DNA from: Pirellulales bacterium
GTDB taxonomy: Bacteria > Planctomycetota > Planctomycetia > Pirellulales > JADZDJ01
Length of the DNA stretch: 39,156 nt
Assembly (NCBI GenBank): GCA_035656635.1
Contig: DASRSD010000078.1
Span: forward strand, 1 to 39,156
Direction of reading: 5' to 3'
The notes under the pieces were generated by a model. It saw only the letters and a list, made by a program, of their open reading frames with translations, made no database searches and was not told where the DNA came from. Numbering within the stretch: position 1 is the stretch's first letter; every line of letters begins with the position of its first letter. The translations under genes and the position numbers were made by a program. This document shows, piece after piece, positions 19,058 through 30,501 of the stretch.

Positions 19058-19143
19058 CAATGACCAAAACCCAATGACCAACAAATGAATCACGGAACTG
19101 AATCGAGCAATTGGTCGTTGGAGCTTGGTCATTCTCAGTCATT
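19058..19143. repeat. Inverted dispersed repeat between carA and the GAP1-like gene
   Basis: Left arm 19058-19082 (CAATGACCAAAACCCAATGA...) faces right arm 19118-19143. The reverse complement of the right arm is AATGACTGAGAATGACCAAG followed by CTCCAAC. The arms share AATGACCAA-type words in opposite orientation. The right arm contains the stop codon of the minus-strand GAP1-like gene. It may serve as a two-way transcription barrier between the convergent genes. Confidence 0.5.
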
Positions 19144-20515
19144 CGGACTTGAACAGCAGCGTCAAAACGTCTAACGCTCCAATCGCTTTGTGTGCATCGC
19201 GCATCCCTTGTTCGTGGCAAGCGTCCCAGAGGGTTAACGCATAGTGCAAATACTGTTCACGCAGCGCGGCCATGGTTGATGCCGTAAGCCGCTCGCTAAG
19301 CTGGGTCCAAAGTTGATTTACATTTTCCACGGCCCCTGCCACGGCGTGAACTGCGTCGTAGATGGAATCGTCCAACTGCTCCAGAAGCTCGATGCACGCG
19401 GGGTCCGTTACCGTATGGATTTTTGCCCCTGAGCCAGCCACAAAACTAACTGGGTCACGGCTATAGTTGCTATGCGAACGAGTACGTGGCGAGCGCGGCT
19501 CGGAATTCGATTGAACGGCAGCCGTCTGATTTCGGGGACGGTCGGTGCGATATAGCCGTTCGGAGGCGGCGGCCAATCGTGGAGGCTGGGGAGCCGGCTC
19601 TTCGGAATTTGCCGCGACGACAATGGCCTCGCGATGCAATTCCTTCCGTAGTTGTTCTCCCAACGAATTTAATTCTTCCCAGCGCAAATCAGGACGTCGT
19701 TGTTGCAATGCTGCGGCGAGCTGGGGCAATTGATCGAACCGGATTGCGTCGGCCACATAGGCCGCCCAACCCGTGAGTTCCACCGCGGCGGCGCCCGGGG
19801 AAGACAGATCGATCAAGGTCACTCCTTCGTTGCGCACGGCACGGTGCTGTTCGGCGGCATCTTCCGACACGGGTGCTAAGCGAAACGGACGCCGGGGCGA
19901 AAATCGTAGACCGGTGGTAAACGTCAATGCGGTGCGACATTCTGTGGGAAAGCACTGCAGCAATCCGCCGAACAAAGTCTCGCAGTGTGCAGTGCCGGAC
20001 AGGAGATGAATTCCGGGCTCCATCGCCGCCGCAATCAATTGGGCCACCTCCTCCGGTCCGCGTTGATCGGCCAGTTGCGCCAGCAAACCCTCGTCGACGG
20101 TGTTGGCTCGGCCTACCAGAGTAAACGGCTCCAGCGTGGCTGGCGGCTGATCGTGCACCGTCAGCACGCCCTTGGCCCACGCGGCCCGCAACACGGCAAA
20201 CGGATTATTCGCAAACCGGGCCAGCACAGCAGCGGGCACGAGCAGAAACTGGGTGTAGATTCGTGCTCCGCCGCGACTGCTGTACTCTTGCCCCGCGGCC
20301 ACGGTTTTCGATACGCAATAGGTCCCGCACTGCAAACAGTGAAAATTCACGCTAGATTGTTCGTCCCGATCGGTATTCAACGCATCGTGCGATGGTCCCC
20401 ACACCGCCAATTCGCGCGCCTGCCTGTCCGTTACGCCCGGACTCCGTGCCAAAAGCTGATACCCTGCCGCGTGTTCGGTGCGGGCGGAAGTAAATATGGC
20501 CTGTTCGATCAACAC
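19139..20515 (-). CDS. GTPase-associated protein 1 (GAP1)-like protein
   Basis: From GTG 20515 the product has 458 residues; AGGAG lies 6 bases upstream. The open frame runs further upstream into the GTPase gene, but that part looks like a shadow. The first 115 residues (IEQAIFTSAR, GYQLLARSPGVTDRQARELAVWGPSH, SVNFHCLQCGTYCVSKTVAAG, YTQFLLVPAAVLARFANNPF) match what I recall of the GAP1 N-terminal type 2 domain. The region with RGPEEVAQLIAAAMEPGIHLLSG and LFGGLLQCFPTECRTALTFTTGL resembles the GAP1 middle domain. A polar linker and a C-terminal helical region follow. In published comparative genomics these proteins sit beside Double-GTPase genes in predicted conflict or signalling systems; their biochemistry is unknown. 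Here it is the last gene of the set, 85 bases after the GTPase. Confidence 0.75.
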   Translation of the reverse strand: MLIEQAIFTSARTEHAAGYQLLARSPGVTDRQARELAVWGPSHDALNTDRDEQSSVNFHCLQCGTYCVSKTVAAGQEYSSRGGARIYTQFLLVPAAVLARFANNPFAVLRAAWAKGVLTVHDQPPATLEPFTLVGRANTVDEGLLAQLADQRGPEEVAQLIAAAMEPGIHLLSGTAHCETLFGGLLQCFPTECRTALTFTTGLRFSPRRPFRLAPVSEDAAEQHRAVRNEGVTLIDLSSPGAAAVELTGWAAYVADAIRFDQLPQLAAALQQRRPDLRWEELNSLGEQLRKELHREAIVVAANSEEPAPQPPRLAAASERLYRTDRPRNQTAAVQSNSEPRSPRTRSHSNYSRDPVSFVAGSGAKIHTVTDPACIELLEQLDDSIYDAVHAVAGAVENVNQLWTQLSERLTASTMAALREQYLHYALTLWDACHEQGMRDAHKAIGALDVLTLLFKSE

Positions 20516-20600
20516 GTGGAGCTCCTGCAAGATTGGTTTGCTCTGCCGAAAGTCAAGCTGATATGGTTCGATGCAAAGGAAATGGAGTAACCGATACCTT

Positions 20601-21530
20601 TTAGCGTTTCGATCGTTCACGCTTGGACCGAATTTGCTCGACAATCCAGCGGAACGGTTCGAGAATGCCTCGCGGCTCAATCCGTAGCGGCGCGCGCACT
20701 CGGCCTGCGCTGGGAACGTTCCGCATGCCGGTCGCGCCGGCGACTCCCGCGGCAAAAAATTTGTGCTGATGGAATCGTTCCCGACAGTATTGCCACAAGC
20801 TAGCGGCATGCCGCTGGGCATAAATTGTCGGATCGTCGAAAGAATCTTCGCATTGATCGGCCTTGCTGAACACAAGCGCTACGGGCCGCTGTTGCCACGA
20901 GTTCTTTTCGTCGGTTTCTAATTCACTGAGATAGGTCAGCAACTTCATGGTGAAATAATTTTGTTCGTTATGGCCGGAAAGCAGGCCCGTGCTGTCGACC
21001 AGAATCATCGCGCCGGCACACTTCTGCAAAAACGAGCGAATGGCCACATAGGAATGGGGATGTTCGACCTCTTCCAGCAACGCTTCGCCCGCCACGTCGG
21101 GCATAATCAGCTCAAAGGGGTGTTTTTCTTGCGGGCGGCGAACCTGGCAGTGAACCCAATTCCAGCGATCCGGTTCGTTCGACGTTTTTGCCGGAAATTC
21201 GCAGCGCGCCAGCGCTTGCATGGCATTCTGCTGCAGCGTGACCGAGAAAGCCCCGCGGGCCACGATTTGCATTTCGTCCGGCATGCGCGAGAGCATATCC
21301 AGCAGCATGCCCAAGTACACCGTTTTTCCGACGCCGCTGGAACCGATGGTAGCGACCATTTGGGGCTGCAGTTTTTGCGACTGGGCCTGGTGCGCCAGCG
21401 CCATCGGCGCCTGGCAGTGCCGGCACAGCTCGGCATCGAATGCGTTTCCCTGGCCACAAATATAACAAGACACCTGTACGGCGTATTGGGCCAGGCGGTA
21501 CGAATCCATCGGCAGCACGGCTTTGGTCAT
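20601..21530 (-). CDS. Zinc-ribbon GTPase of the Double-GTPase (DO-GTPase) type
   Basis: The 309-residue protein has an N-terminal zinc ribbon (C22, C25, C36, C39 in CYICG...CRHC) and a P-loop GTPase domain. G1 is GSSGVGKT (63-70), G3 is DVAGE (145-149) and G4 is SKAD (222-225), which favours guanine. The spacing between G1 and G3 is long, with a helical insertion, as in TRAFAC-like GTPases of conflict systems. No membrane segment is seen, so it should be cytosolic. The start ATG overlaps the stop of the FGE-like gene (ATGA, 21527-21530), implying translational coupling. With the downstream GAP1-like gene it probably forms the core switch of the system. The Double-GTPase 2 assignment is from memory of the family, without a search. 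Confidence 0.8.
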   Translation of the reverse strand: MTKAVLPMDSYRLAQYAVQVSCYICGQGNAFDAELCRHCQAPMALAHQAQSQKLQPQMVATIGSSGVGKTVYLGMLLDMLSRMPDEMQIVARGAFSVTLQQNAMQALARCEFPAKTSNEPDRWNWVHCQVRRPQEKHPFELIMPDVAGEALLEEVEHPHSYVAIRSFLQKCAGAMILVDSTGLLSGHNEQNYFTMKLLTYLSELETDEKNSWQQRPVALVFSKADQCEDSFDDPTIYAQRHAASLWQYCRERFHQHKFFAAGVAGATGMRNVPSAGRVRAPLRIEPRGILEPFRWIVEQIRSKRERSKR

Positions 21531-22780
21531 GCCAGCGTCTCCTCGACGGCCTCGTCGTGAAACAATTCGGCTTGTTCAATGAATGGAGGTCCTTGGTGTG
21601 CCATCTCGCCACATGGCAATTCGTCTTGTTCCGCATGCGATTCACCGGGCAAGGAACTTCCCGCGATTGCAGCAGATGAATCAGCAAGTTGATCGAGAGG
21701 CTTACCCGGCGGCGGATCGGTCGGCGGTCCGGCAATGTCGCAGAGGCTTAAGGCACAACGAAAACCAATGTTATGCTTTCGCAGAATGGGGTTTTCGCCG
21801 CTGGCAAATTGGCACGTGGCCTGATGTTCGAAGTACGTGTCAAACGCGCCGCCACGAATGGTCTTCAACAGGGGGCCATGGCCGTATAACACTTCCTCCG
21901 TGGTCGGTTCGGTTTCCAAGGTGGTGGCGGTCCACTCCCAAGCATTTCCAATCAATTGATATACTCCGCCGACGCTAACGCCCTCTGCGAATTCGTCGAC
22001 CGCCACCATCCGGCCGGGCTCAGATCCCCAGACGTTTGCCTTGCTGCGATCGAACGTTTCTCCCCATGGATACTGGCGCTGCAGCGAGGTGCCTGCACTG
22101 AGGGTTACCGGCCAACTGCCGGCCTTGACCCATTCCGCATCGGTCGGCAAACGCTTGCCGACCCAACGTGCATAGGCGACCGCCTCGTACCAACTAACTC
22201 CGACCACAGGCAAGCGCTCCTCTCCGGGCAAATACCGTCCGTCTTTCCAAAACCGCGGTCCGGGTTCTCCCGTTTGATCTGTGAAATCGAGCACCGCGGG
22301 CCAAACCTCTTGGTCCCAAATTGCCATTTCCTGATATCCACCAGCGTTGACAAACTGCTGATACTGCTGGTTGGTGACCAAATAGCGGTCCAAAAATACG
22401 CTTTGCACCGCCACGGTGAATTCCTGAGGAGAATTGAAATCTTCGGTGGCAAACAGTGGGTAGTCGACATCGAACACACACGGCTCTAAATAAACAGTTC
22501 CCGCCGGCACCAAGCCCATCGAATCGCTTAACGCCTGCTTGGCTTTTTCGTAAAAATCTGGCATTAAATTGCGCGCAATTTGGGCCCGCAACAGCAACGC
22601 AAAGCGCCCGTCAACAAGCATTTGATCTACAAGCGAACCGACATCGTCCGCCGTTGGTACAGCATGGGCTGGCGGATGGCTAACCTGCACAGGTGGTTGC
22701 GGAAGAAGTTGCTTGCTTTTCAATAAAAAATGCGCGTGTTTGTGCCAATGCGGCAGCATGTGGCGGATGCGAGTAAACAT
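21527..22780 (-). CDS. FGE/SUMF1-like (formylglycine-generating enzyme fold) protein
   Basis: The product has 417 residues from ATG 22780; GGGAGGTG lies about 6 bases upstream, so it is preferred to the in-frame GTG at 22789. After a polar Pro/His-rich N-terminus and a helical segment (RFALLLRAQIARNLMPDFYEKA), residues about 90-345 show the FGE-sulfatase fold: DRYLVTNQQYQQFVNAGGY, LPVVGVSWYEAVAYARWVGKRLPTDAEW (in parts), YPWGETFD, GVYQLIGNAWEWT, RGGAFDTYFEHQATCQF and IGFRCALSL. The first catalytic cysteine of true FGE, just after the RGGxx element, is replaced (RGGAFDT) and only one Cys remains nearby. Enzyme activity on sulfatases is therefore doubtful and a binding or sensing role is likelier. 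The C-terminal 70 residues are acidic and disordered. Its stop overlaps the GTPase start. Confidence 0.8.
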   Translation of the reverse strand: MFTRIRHMLPHWHKHAHFLLKSKQLLPQPPVQVSHPPAHAVPTADDVGSLVDQMLVDGRFALLLRAQIARNLMPDFYEKAKQALSDSMGLVPAGTVYLEPCVFDVDYPLFATEDFNSPQEFTVAVQSVFLDRYLVTNQQYQQFVNAGGYQEMAIWDQEVWPAVLDFTDQTGEPGPRFWKDGRYLPGEERLPVVGVSWYEAVAYARWVGKRLPTDAEWVKAGSWPVTLSAGTSLQRQYPWGETFDRSKANVWGSEPGRMVAVDEFAEGVSVGGVYQLIGNAWEWTATTLETEPTTEEVLYGHGPLLKTIRGGAFDTYFEHQATCQFASGENPILRKHNIGFRCALSLCDIAGPPTDPPPGKPLDQLADSSAAIAGSSLPGESHAEQDELPCGEMAHQGPPFIEQAELFHDEAVEETLA

Positions 22781-22857
22781 GGTGGGCACCTCCCGTGAAG
22801 CTTTTTCATAACGCGGTCGTTTCTCAGGCGGTGTATCTGTATTCCGGATGGTCCGGA

Positions 22858-23568
22858 CTATTTTTGTTTGCGGCGTCGAGCAACATCTTTCTGCAAAATC
22901 TCGAATTGGGAAAGAACCGAGCCCAGCACCGGGTCGGGATTGCTTCCTCCGGCTGAGTGCGGTGGTGGGGCGTACGATGCTGATGAAGGCGAAGGCTCTT
23001 CGGCTGCAGCGGCATAATCTTCGTCTTCCATTTGCAGCACTGCCGAAGCCACGTGTTCGGCCGATAGTGGCGCAAGACGCCGCGGGGGCGTCGGCGGGGT
23101 AATTGCCAAATCACTTTGTTGGGTGATCCACTTGGTTTGCTTGTCGAGAATGCGGCGTAATTGGCGGAGCTCAGTCATCCACTGGACGTGCTCGTCCGAC
23201 ATTTGCCGTTTTTGCCCCGCAATAATTTCCGCCATGTTGACGGCTCGACCACGGATGTTTTCGAGTTCTTCTTCCAAAGCCTGCCGTTCGCTTTCCAGCT
23301 CGGCCACGCGAATTTCCAGCTCGGCATTGTTTTCCGTGTTCTCATCCAGCGTGGGCTGAAATTCCTCGGCCAGCGGGCTGCGCAACTCTTCCAGTTGTTG
23401 GCGCTGCAGCGCCATTTGCGCTTCCGCCTGCAACAGCCTGCCGTGCAAAGTTTCCAAATCAGTGAACAAATCGGTTACAAACTGGGCATAACTTTCTTGT
23501 CCCGCTTGTAACGCCGCCAGCGATTGTTTCAAGGTTGCTCCGGCGCCGGCAGCGGTGGATATAGACAC
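22858..23568 (-). CDS. Coiled-coil protein, first gene of the GTPase/GAP1 set
   Basis: The product has 236 residues from GTG 23568, with GAGGG about 7 bases upstream; another in-frame GTG lies at 23586. Residues about 25-150 are strongly heptad-patterned and Glu/Gln/Leu-rich (LETLHGRLLQAEAQMALQRQ, LEIRVAELESERQALEEELE), predicting a long coiled coil. The tail is Pro/Ser-rich and ends in basic DVARRRKQK. There is no signal peptide, membrane segment or catalytic motif. It lies 77 bases before the FGE-like gene on the same strand and may scaffold or oligomerise the system. I do not recognise a named family. Confidence 0.65.
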   Translation of the reverse strand: MSISTAAGAGATLKQSLAALQAGQESYAQFVTDLFTDLETLHGRLLQAEAQMALQRQQLEELRSPLAEEFQPTLDENTENNAELEIRVAELESERQALEEELENIRGRAVNMAEIIAGQKRQMSDEHVQWMTELRQLRRILDKQTKWITQQSDLAITPPTPPRRLAPLSAEHVASAVLQMEDEDYAAAAEEPSPSSASYAPPPHSAGGSNPDPVLGSVLSQFEILQKDVARRRKQK

Positions 23569-23967
23569 GAATGAGCCCTCGATCACCTTGGGCTTGAACT
23601 GCCCAAGGCAAAGTGTGAACTTCGGTCGCCAAGCTCAACAAGCGCGCTTTTGCCGGAAATCGATAAGTTGCAAAAACCGCGATCTGCTGTGAAATGCAAT
23701 CGCTGGTCGCGATACATTCCCCGCTTGGTCGAATTGCAGGAACGCCGCTGGAAATGACTTGGCGCCGATCCTCAATAGCAACCCTAGTTCATAAAAGGAT
23801 TAAGGGCAAACCAGAGGCGGTTCGCGCTATTTCGCACAGCGCCACGGACCAGCCTCCCCCTTGCAAGCCGCGGTAAATATGCCATCGTTCTCATATTGGA
23901 GCTAGAAACGGCGTGGATTTTGCACGATAGGCAACCAGAAATCAGCATCTTTATGAGGAGAACTCCC
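23569..23967. other. Divergent intergenic region upstream of the GTPase/GAP1 set
   Basis: This stretch of about 400 bases separates the minus-strand coiled-coil gene from the plus-strand cysteine-rich gene and must hold both promoters. The clearest element is the hairpin CCTTGGGC-TTGAACT-GCCCAAGG (23586-23608), 17 bases upstream of the chosen coiled-coil start and overlapping the alternative GTG. It could act as an operator or as a leader hairpin. No convincing -35/-10 pair was found. ORFs here are short and lack coding character. Confidence 0.45.
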
Positions 23968-24399
23968 ATGTTGAAAATTAGAAACATTTGTGGCTTGACC
24001 GCCGCGGCGCTGGTGCTGCTGGCTGGATTGGCAAACGTGAGCGCTGCCCAAAGCACCCCGGTTAAGAACGCCTCGCTCAACTCCAGTGGCGACTGCTGCC
24101 AAACCGCTCCCACGCCGGCGCCCGCCTGCACAACCTATAAGCCGTGCATCACCTATCGCGGTTGTTGCGATTGCTGTGGGCCGAAAGTCAGCCAGGTGCT
24201 GAAAGTGAAAGATCCGGGCGATTGCTGCTGCAACAGCCTGGCCGAAATTCCAGTGTGCTTGCCGGCGTGCTGCAAAAATCCGTGCGTGAGTTGCAAGTGC
24301 GGATTGTTAGGCCGCGGCGTGGTAACGTACTCCTACGATTGCTGCTGCGTCACCGTAATTTTCACACGCTGCGGCGATGTGATTGTGCGCTACAGCTAA
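23968..24399 (+). CDS. Small secreted cysteine-rich protein
   Basis: The product has 143 residues from ATG 23968, with GAGGAG 7 bases upstream. A clear signal peptide (MLKIRN, then hydrophobic GLTAAALVLLAGLANVSAAQ) should be cleaved after VSAA or SAA. The mature part of about 115 residues holds 21 cysteines, many in CC or CCC clusters (GDCC, GCCDCCG, GDCCC, PACCKNPC, YDCCC), so it may be a disulfide-stabilised or metal-binding exported protein. It ends VTVIFTRCGDVIVRYS, a beta-type segment. A longer frame from 23896 adds residues before the signal and is unlikely. Cys-rich small exported proteins are frequent in planctomycetes, but I do not recognise a named family. Confidence 0.75.
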   Translation: MLKIRNICGLTAAALVLLAGLANVSAAQSTPVKNASLNSSGDCCQTAPTPAPACTTYKPCITYRGCCDCCGPKVSQVLKVKDPGDCCCNSLAEIPVCLPACCKNPCVSCKCGLLGRGVVTYSYDCCCVTVIFTRCGDVIVRYS

Positions 24400-29370: not shown

Positions 29371-30501
29371 TCACTTTTTTTTCACAGGAACCTGGGCGGC
29401 GGGCTTGCCGGGTTGACCGGCTGCTGGGGAAGAAGCGGATGCCGATCCGCTGCCGGTCGTTTCGTTGGCGCCCGCTTTGGGCAGCGCGATCGCGGCCACC
29501 GGCTCATCAATGCGGATGGCTTTGCGGCCCTTGAACGCCCCGACCCGAGCATGATATTTGGCCACGCCTTCCACACTGATTGTAATTGGCGTGTTCACAT
29601 CTTTTTCCGTGGTGATAATATCGCCCACCCGCAGGCCGATTAAATCGCTGGTGGTAATTTTTGTGTCGGCCAGTTGCGCCACCAATTGCACGAGCGCGCC
29701 TCGCAAATTTTGACTGATCCGCTGGGTGCTTTCCGGCGTGGCACCACGCCGGCCATAGGCCACCCAACTGTTGGACGATAGTTTTTGCCCGATGCGCTCG
29801 ATCGAGTTGAAGGGAATACACAAATTCATCATGCCCCGCGCTTCCCCCAGCGTAATTTCAAAGCTGATGAGCACGATCACTTCGTTCGGTGGCACAATTT
29901 GCACCAGTTGCGGATTGCTTTCCACCCGTTCGACCGCCACGCGCAACTCGATGACGTTCATCCATGCCCGGCGAAATTCCTCCAAAAACAGTCCGGTAAT
30001 ACGGGCGACCAAGCGCAGCTCAATTTCGGTGAGAGGCCGCCGAGCCAGCGGCGTGGCATCTTTACCACCGCCCAACAGCCGATCAATAATCGGAAACAAA
30101 ATCGAGGGATTGATGTCGAGAATGAGATGCCCGTCGAGTGGCTCCGCCTTCAGCAAGTTGAAGCAGGTGGGATTTTCCAGACTGAACACAAACTCGCTAT
30201 AGGTGAGCTGATCGACGCTGGTTAGCTTTACCTCGACAATGCTGCGCAACAAGCCGGATAGCGCGGCCCCGTAGTTGCGGCTAAAACCCTCGTGCAGCGT
30301 TTGCAAGGCCCGCATTTGCTCCTTACCTACGCGTTCAGGCCGCTTGAAATCGTAAGGGACAATTTTTTCGCGCGGCCGGCCTTCTATGTCCGGCAAGGCC
30401 GATGGCGCGCCAGCCGGGGCAGCTTTTGCGCCGGAATTGCTGTCTGACTCCATTTGAGTCAGCAGTTTTTCGACATCGGCCTGACTGAGAACGTCGGTCA
30501 T
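29371..30501 (-). CDS. fliM: Flagellar motor switch protein FliM
   Basis: The 376-residue protein has the short N-terminal CheY-binding peptide LSQADVEKLL, then a polar linker. The middle CheC-like domain follows (YDFKRPERVGKEQMRALQTL, GFSRNYGAALSGLLRS, PLDGHLILDINPSILFPIID, LLGGG, LTEIELRLV). The C-terminal SpoA domain (about 265-335, LADTKITTSDLIGLRVGDII) is the part that pairs with FliN. The Ala/Gly/Ser/Pro tail ending VPVKKK is probably flexible. FliM forms the C-ring and reverses rotation on CheY-P binding. No other flagellar genes are in the window, so fliM is outside a flagellar operon here, 102 bases downstream of proA. Confidence 0.95.
   Translation of the reverse strand: MTDVLSQADVEKLLTQMESDSNSGAKAAPAGAPSALPDIEGRPREKIVPYDFKRPERVGKEQMRALQTLHEGFSRNYGAALSGLLRSIVEVKLTSVDQLTYSEFVFSLENPTCFNLLKAEPLDGHLILDINPSILFPIIDRLLGGGKDATPLARRPLTEIELRLVARITGLFLEEFRRAWMNVIELRVAVERVESNPQLVQIVPPNEVIVLISFEITLGEARGMMNLCIPFNSIERIGQKLSSNSWVAYGRRGATPESTQRISQNLRGALVQLVAQLADTKITTSDLIGLRVGDIITTEKDVNTPITISVEGVAKYHARVGAFKGRKAIRIDEPVAAIALPKAGANETTGSGSASASSPAAGQPGKPAAQVPVKKK

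Follow-up and report, generated by a model that had tools for sequence, protein, structure and literature searches.

A planctomycete zinc-ribbon GTPase encoded beside GAP1, a predicted longin-DENN-like protein whose loop arginine is coupled to the GTPase

We analysed a 39,156-nucleotide stretch of DNA from a Pirellulales bacterium (contig DASRSD010000078.1; hereafter the window), in which four adjacent minus-strand genes encode a coiled-coil protein (CC), a protein with the fold of formylglycine-generating enzyme (FGE), a zinc-ribbon small GTPase, and GAP1. We propose that the GTPase is probably switched off by GAP1, which would act as a longin-type GTPase-activating protein (GAP) by means of an arginine finger, R80. 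This residue is retained in GAP1s encoded with the GTPase and is almost always missing from those found in genomes that lack it. The predicted longin-DENN-like fold of GAP1, the coupling of R80 to the GTPase and the separability of the gene set are new. An earlier reading, made from the letters alone (the sequence-only reading), had picked out the row of four genes and the 4 nucleotides shared by the FGE and GTPase genes (ATGA, 21527–21530), and the open reading frames (ORFs) confirm this layout:

22858–23586, minus strand: CC, coiled-coil protein of 242 amino acids (ORF list; no Pfam family over the cut-off)
21527–22789, minus strand: FGE-fold protein without the presumed copper-site cysteine pair of FGE (PF03781)
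20601–21530, minus strand: zinc-ribbon small GTPase of the DO-GTPase family (DO-GTPase1 and DO-GTPase2 profiles)
19139–20512, minus strand: GAP1 (PF20013, GAP1-N2; start set by homologues and a GGAG)
GAP1 residues 1–137, 138–300 and 371–457: longin-like domain, DENN-like alpha/beta domain and, after a disordered linker, helical tail (AlphaFold model)
20258–20287, minus strand: codons for GAP1 residues 76–85 (EYSSRGGARI), the predicted beta4-beta5 loop with R80 and the first beta5 residues
19142–19402, minus strand: C-terminal helical tail of GAP1, a separable domain also found as its own gene

Our genome searches covered 57 related genomes, 396 genomes from 144 genera of the order and a phylum-wide draw of 392 genomes, and scored the top candidates only, in draft genomes. 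Duplicates were removed to leave 84 distinct GAP1s and 95 distinct GTPases, and were kept among 97 FGE loci and 114 FGE alignment rows. The longin-DENN part of GAP1 was detected in 139 of the 396 genomes, 41 of which lie outside the 113 GTPase carriers. One of the 41 is G001, from the window's genus; all of the 40 other GTPase-less longin-DENN loci were retrieved, and no GTPase-profile match is present in the retrieved stretch of any of them (L236 has a weak FGE-family match, 2e-7, elsewhere). R80, which lies in the predicted beta4-beta5 loop of the longin domain, is kept in 83/83 GAP1s from GTPase loci, as against 3/41 from GTPase-less genomes, and the three matches all fall in a diverged group in which the alignment of the loop is unsure. 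A looser motif count gives 83/83 and 2/41, with L214, one of the eight closest GTPase-less orthologues, scoring by chance spacing. Among these eight (L161, L204–L207, L214–L216), R80 is kept in none, and the near-invariant positions Q4, A5, Y18, S24, W38, P40, P104, P189, R193, L202, S205 and R208 are kept in all.

The locus in G001 carries TrxB, AsnS, P167, CC, GAP1 and CarA in order, with the FGE and GTPase genes missing between CC and a full-length GAP1; a search of this genome detected neither a GTPase nor, at E 1e-70, an FGE. The G001 protein is 69% identical to the GAP1 of the window (85% in the longin domain), carries R80W, S78N and S9F, has 6 of its 21 longin changes within residues 77–85, and is the sole member without R80 among the 84 distinct GAP1s. 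In L207, from genome G481, position 80 is His. CC adjoins GAP1, with FGE and GTPase gone, in six of the eight closest orthologues (G001, L204, L205, L214, L215 and L216), the CC match being weak (E 6e-8 to 2e-4) in four of the five other than G001. On a tree of 91 rows, built with the loop left out of the alignment, the GTPase trait changes four times, four also being forced by the starred branches, and R80 follows the trait in 4/4 independent pairs. G001 pairs with the window (support 96), G481 with the GTPase-bearing L099 (98), and G445 with L136 (90 only). Arginine is probably the ancestral state at position 80, since it is kept in larger planctomycete GAP1-N2 proteins, in an acidic-x-[ST]-x-R motif found in 23/23 of those read. 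Planctomycetes have a second, mostly larger GAP1-N2 type (L174–L194, L196, L199), with up to three copies in one genome (G435), and G431 and G343 hold both types. The 33 diverged longin-DENN proteins (L208–L213, L217–L243) come from GTPase-less genomes of family f18, and 22 of them have a tail match.

The arginine finger of human NPRL2 is reported to be Arg78 (PMC9646525). It stands in KKYSRNALLFNLGFV, where we confirmed both letters and numbering. By our own reading of the topology, we take this arginine to be placed just before a strand, like that in the EYSxRGGxxVYT of GAP1.

The AlphaFold model of GAP1 (m0c615729a461; pLDDT 82.4) has an N-domain with the order strand-strand-helix-strand-strand-strand-helix-helix; after it come an alpha/beta domain in the middle, a disordered linker and a tail of four helices. 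The predicted structure of residues 1–287 resembles longin-DENN proteins, which are regulators of Rab, Rag and Arf GTPases. The top Foldseek matches are two folliculin-complex chains, TagF and a DENND10-complex chain. VIA-align gives DENND1A (Z 8.4 over 247 residues) and DENND1B (8.1), both with Rab35, then a DENND10-complex chain (7.5), an FLCN-complex chain (6.8), a Lokiarchaeal roadblock-longin protein (6.7), TagF (6.6) and GATOR1/KICSTOR chains (5.6–6.1); rows 1–17 are all longin/DENN proteins, complexes that hold them (subunit unnamed) or TagF. SEA chains and Lst4 are also among the structural matches from these two programs, and a folliculin crystal structure separately matches residues 142–281 of the model (Z 4.7). 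Neither longin nor DENN is mentioned in the main text of the 2020 paper in which GAP1 received its name (PMC7159879), and no publication linking GAP1 to either was found among the papers listed by our literature searches. The suggestion in the sequence-only reading that GAP1 transmits or regulates is supported, GAP1 being the likely regulator of the GTPase.

The GTPase has the features of a switch, as had also been proposed. Its G1 (G63, G68-K69-T70), G3 (D145-x-x-G148) and G4 (K223, D225) motifs and the four cysteines of its zinc ribbon (22, 25, 36 and 39) are invariant in 95/95 distinct homologues. The conserved glutamate of the DO-GTPase Walker B region, E149, is present together with both DO-GTPase profile matches, and position 149 is Glu in 83 and Asp in 10 of the 95. 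We equate E149, in switch II, with the catalytic Gln61 of Ras; slow intrinsic GTP hydrolysis is probable because Glu or Asp replaces this Gln. The AlphaFold model of the GTPase (pLDDT 90.4) is structurally closest, at Z about 17, to Rab32, RalA/RalB, an Arl3/Arl13B entry, Rab8 and Ras, and MglA is among its Foldseek matches. GTPases from 10 loci without a longin-DENN partner differ at F95, K115, E119, D121, P144 and M195, which are conserved in the other 82. Four of these six positions lie near the switches: K115, E119 and D121, where T116 is taken as switch I and is flanked by K115–D121, and P144, which precedes switch II. Six of the 10 loci share a layout with a tail-only gene, and these six may form one clade.

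We suggest that the GTPase is a cytosolic switch that would cycle between its GTP- and GDP-bound states and would probably be slow to hydrolyse GTP alone. GAP1 would bind it through the longin-like and DENN-like module and insert R80, from the beta4-beta5 loop, to complete the active site, and would thus literally be a GTPase-activating protein. This module would be tethered to a scaffold by GAP1's helical tail, and probably by CC too, and the FGE-fold protein would most likely be a ligand- or client-binding domain that is read out by the switch.

The gene set recurs in planctomycetes, in line with the sequence-only reading: the order is the same in Pirellulales, and a reduced form is found in Isosphaeraceae. 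We found the GTPase in 36/57 related genomes, with a single match in each (36/36), in 113/396 genomes and 77/144 genera of the order, and in 16/392 genomes of the phylum-wide draw, where seven of the 16 matches reach no better than E 1e-11 to 1e-18. Among the related genomes, FGE accompanies the GTPase in 36/36 carriers, and both are absent from the same 21. Counts of gene order rest on the best 80 of 110 relatives, which include Blastopirellula marina DSM 3645, Singulisphaera acidiphila, Tautonia sociabilis and Aquisphaera insulae. FGE lies upstream of the GTPase in 78/80 loci, the contigs of the remaining two starting within 300 nucleotides of the GTPase, and a GAP1-profile match follows the GTPase in 73/80, two of the other seven loci stopping at a contig edge. 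A CC-profile match lies upstream of FGE in 88/97 FGE loci that have at least 600 nucleotides upstream (duplicates included); inspection revealed two further CC matches (L159 and L156).

Parts of the set also occur apart from one another. The longin-DENN part is present in 31/36 GTPase-bearing relatives as against 1/21 others, and the tail profile matches 38/57 relatives, 30/36 with the GTPase and 8/21 without it. All parts are present in 65 of 107 GAP1-like ORFs; 34 lack the tail by profile, among them the named Isosphaeraceae and some ORFs cut by contig ends, and 8 are tail-only (two are split genes). At six loci (L059, L060, L061, L147, L149 and L150) the GTPase is found with a tail-only gene, and with FGE too where the contig reaches; in G008, G025 and G047, which have such loci, we detected no longin-DENN domain. 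Among 13 GTPase-less CarA loci that we read, CC stands with a tail-only gene at five (L163, L167, L169, L170 and L171) and with a full GAP1 at one. A rule that the tail always comes with CC is not upheld, since Isosphaeraceae loci lack the tail, yet two of them have CC traces (L153, profile match at 4e-5; L156, motif). CC homologues differ greatly in length and have a conserved C-terminal motif, which in the window reads VLGSVLSQFEILQKDVARRR.

We rejected two possible roles for the FGE-fold protein. The first catalytic Cys column holds Cys in 0/114 alignment rows and the second in 93/114 (duplicates included); we take these columns to be the copper-site cysteine pair, and the missing first cysteine rules out a formylglycine-generating enzyme. 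A variable sensor like the lectins diversified by diversity-generating retroelements (DGRs) is ruled out as well, because residues 313–346, the region that varies in those lectins, are among the most conserved, and the sensing role that had been suggested for this protein does not extend to such variability. Contrary to what a diversified lectin would show, the stretch RGGAFDTYF...QATCQF...RKHNIGFR hardly varies. A hypervariable C-terminal region like that of DGR-diversified FGS lectins was not found, a reverse transcriptase outside the window not having been searched for. The FGE-fold protein is best read as an obligate, non-catalytic partner of the GTPase, and it is likely to carry a conserved ligand or partner site.

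Several observations weigh against an arginine-finger mechanism. The eight closest GTPase-less orthologues also vary at S9, G17 (5/8 kept), H42 (6/8) and E76 (3/8). In the 33 diverged proteins, R208 is kept in 16/33 and G17, Y18 and P40 are mostly lost; because other conserved residues are lost too, loss of R80 is unspecific there, and its specificity rests on the eight close orthologues. There are only four independent changes, for which the sign test gives p 0.125, the minimum possible with four pairs; when all 124 rows are used, R80 changes 5 times, mean agreement is 3.9/4, and some pairings leave one pair undiffering (p up to 0.25). For the deepest GTPase-less group, the direction of change cannot be assigned, and absence of the GTPase depends on top-candidate scoring of draft genomes. 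A search of the PDB with the GAP1 profile found no sequence link to longin or DENN proteins (one row, E 9.7), and hhalign of GAP1 against one 55-residue NPRL2 fragment was empty. Since the structural scores are moderate (Z 6–8 is a range that VIA-align calls common, and whole-model TM-scores are low) and have no sequence support, the longin-DENN fold is a prediction. Furthermore, no longin-DENN domain was detected in 15/113 GTPase-bearing genomes, so these may have another regulator or none. Lastly, GAP1 could regulate in the opposite direction, because many DENN proteins are guanine nucleotide exchange factors (GEFs). GAP1 would then be a DENN-like GEF for the GTPase, with R80 binding rather than catalysing. 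Its best VIA-align matches, DENND1A and DENND1B, are Rab35 GEF domains, and the coupled loss of R80 and the GTPase shows only that R80 serves the GTPase. We nevertheless consider a GEF unlikely, given that the arginine sits in a loop matching the NPRL2 GAP finger, by our reading of the sequence and the predicted strands, and that switch II lacks Gln (E or D in 93/95).

A stronger contender, though one that we hold only tentatively, is that CC and GAP1 together make up a structural scaffold with a main function independent of the GTPase, FGE and GTPase being an optional input and the loss of R80 the drift of an unused surface. The persistence of the longin-DENN part without the GTPase in 41/396 genomes fits this proposal, as do the GTPase-less CarA loci that keep CC with a tail-only gene or a full GAP1, but the longin-DENN part otherwise tracks the GTPase among the relatives. 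A scaffold is compatible with the arginine-finger mechanism rather than opposed to it, and overlaps with GAP1 acting as either a GAP or a GEF. Least probable of all is an anti-invader conflict system, in which the GTPase and GAP1 would set a threshold and the FGE-fold protein would be a variable effector; the conflict-system framing of the sequence-only reading is not supported. Kaur et al. (2020), who described systems of this type, reported planctomycete GAP1-N2 systems with FGS (FGE-fold) effectors, and their table gives GAP1-N2 systems in 904 organisms (PMC7159879). Consistent with mobility, the distribution is patchy (113/396 genomes of the order), GTPase and CarA distances correlate weakly (r 0.30, 23/2000 permutations as high; GTPase/FGE r 0.81), the flanks are not fixed (CarA is convergent within 4.5 kb in 15/72 loci), and families f2 and f20 are not each one clade in the GTPase tree. 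However, the GTPase is single-copy in all of its carriers among the 57 relatives; in its tree of 36 rows, the labels of the 17 families can be explained by 16 changes, the fewest possible (shuffled mean 29.0; 0/200 as low), and 10/12 multi-row families are monophyletic; and the FGE partner, conserved where DGR lectins vary, is the same throughout the loci read. Moreover, the neighbours are largely housekeeping genes (CarA, AsnS, TrxB-like, CstA, FliM, RecO, YbeY and others), and a Pfam scan confined to the 28 proteins of the window found no FN3 (FNIII) and no toxin family over the cut-off. No mobile neighbourhood with highly variable effectors was seen in the loci read, and copy number, tree and neighbours led us to reject a mobile island. 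The absence of an obvious toxin, which had been noted earlier, holds for the window, and the housekeeping role that had been left as an alternative is supported. We conclude that this GTPase switch is mostly vertically inherited and stands apart from the mobile conflict systems that share its names.

Matches to the GAP1 and DO-GTPase profiles and co-occurrence of the genes, on which the sequence-only reading had staked its assignment, were both found. In the window, Pfam profiles match for GAP1-N2 (4.4e-15), DO-GTPase1 (PF19975, 7.5e-16), DO-GTPase2 (PF19993, 6.6e-11) and FGE-sulfatase (6.7e-40), and GAP1-N2 matches 24/24 homologues in set A3. The other GAP1 domains it had anticipated fared less well: GAP1-M is under the cut-off in the window protein (0.11; 9/24 homologues match), and GAP1-C gave no match among the Pfam results for GAP1, the C-terminus of which is occupied by a different helical tail. 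An NCBIfam scan gave nothing over the cut-off, and PADLOC gave weak coiled-coil and P-loop matches and nothing else. We took as chance both a SOG2 match to the linker/tail region of GAP1 (0.0041, under the cut-off) and weak HBL/Nhe-type coiled-coil matches of CC in Pfam and NCBIfam. GAP1 is listed as a 578-amino-acid ORF starting at 20875, which is N-terminally overlong; homologues and a GGAG point instead to a TTG start at 20512. For the FGE-fold protein, the listed start is GTG (22789), and an ATG at 22780, preceded by GGGAGG, is likelier. Two other genes lie near the locus:

23896–24399, plus strand: Cys-rich 167-amino-acid protein with no Pfam match, recurring near the CC gene (matched in 13/35 loci)
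29371–30501, minus strand: FliM-like flagellar switch protein

Known systems resemble parts of this set. The DO-GTPase/GAP1-N2 systems (PMC7159879) likewise have an N-terminal zinc ribbon on the DO-GTPase, a GAP1-N2 protein directly downstream and planctomycete FGS versions; the set described here differs in being single-copy, in the recurrence of its four-gene order, and in its CC gene and helical GAP1 tail, with no FN3 protein in the window, no effector swapping seen and housekeeping surroundings. Eukaryotic longin-DENN regulators (DENND1, FLCN-FNIP2, NPRL2-NPRL3, C9orf72-SMCR8) have in common with GAP1 the predicted order of a longin and an alpha/beta DENN-like domain, a Ras-like GTPase partner, here encoded adjacently, and an arginine in the longin loop, here dependent on the GTPase; in contrast, we detected no sequence similarity to them and found no second longin partner in the set. 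TagF, a type VI secretion system regulator unlike GAP1 in this respect, is reported to resemble the longin domain of Sec22b (PMC3325213). It too is bacterial, and aligned to GAP1 over both domains (9t0n, Z 6.6, 227 residues). We know of no such GTPase beside TagF. MglA/MglB of Myxococcus also pairs a bacterial Ras-like GTPase with a dedicated regulator, but MglB is a roadblock domain (PMC9481161), whereas GAP1 is longin-like and DENN-like, the GTPase has a zinc ribbon, and FGE and CC are partners. FGE/SUMF1 and the FGE-fold protein belong to one fold family with many scaffold residues in common, the copper-site pair not being kept in the latter.

DO-GTPase/GAP1 pairs were defined by comparative genomics, and the literature under these names, as far as we found, consists of the 2020 paper (PMC7159879) and a passing mention (PMC11237479). 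A role of R80 in GTP hydrolysis is one concrete, cheaply testable prediction for such pairs. Our findings also bear on the origin of eukaryotic DENN regulators. In a 2012 study (PMC3521125), prokaryotic roadblock GAPs were proposed as the source of the longin domain, and the DENN and d-DENN domains were reported as then known from the DENN module only. It is conceivable, though we would not yet favour it, that GAP1-N2 proteins are true longin-DENN regulators of bacteria, which share ancestry with the DENN modules described in eukaryotes and apply an arginine finger to a Rab-like zinc-ribbon GTPase. If so, the pairing of a GTPase with a longin-DENN protein would predate eukaryotes or would have passed between domains, and the hundreds of GAP1-N2 systems at present classed as conflict systems would acquire a definite biochemical function.

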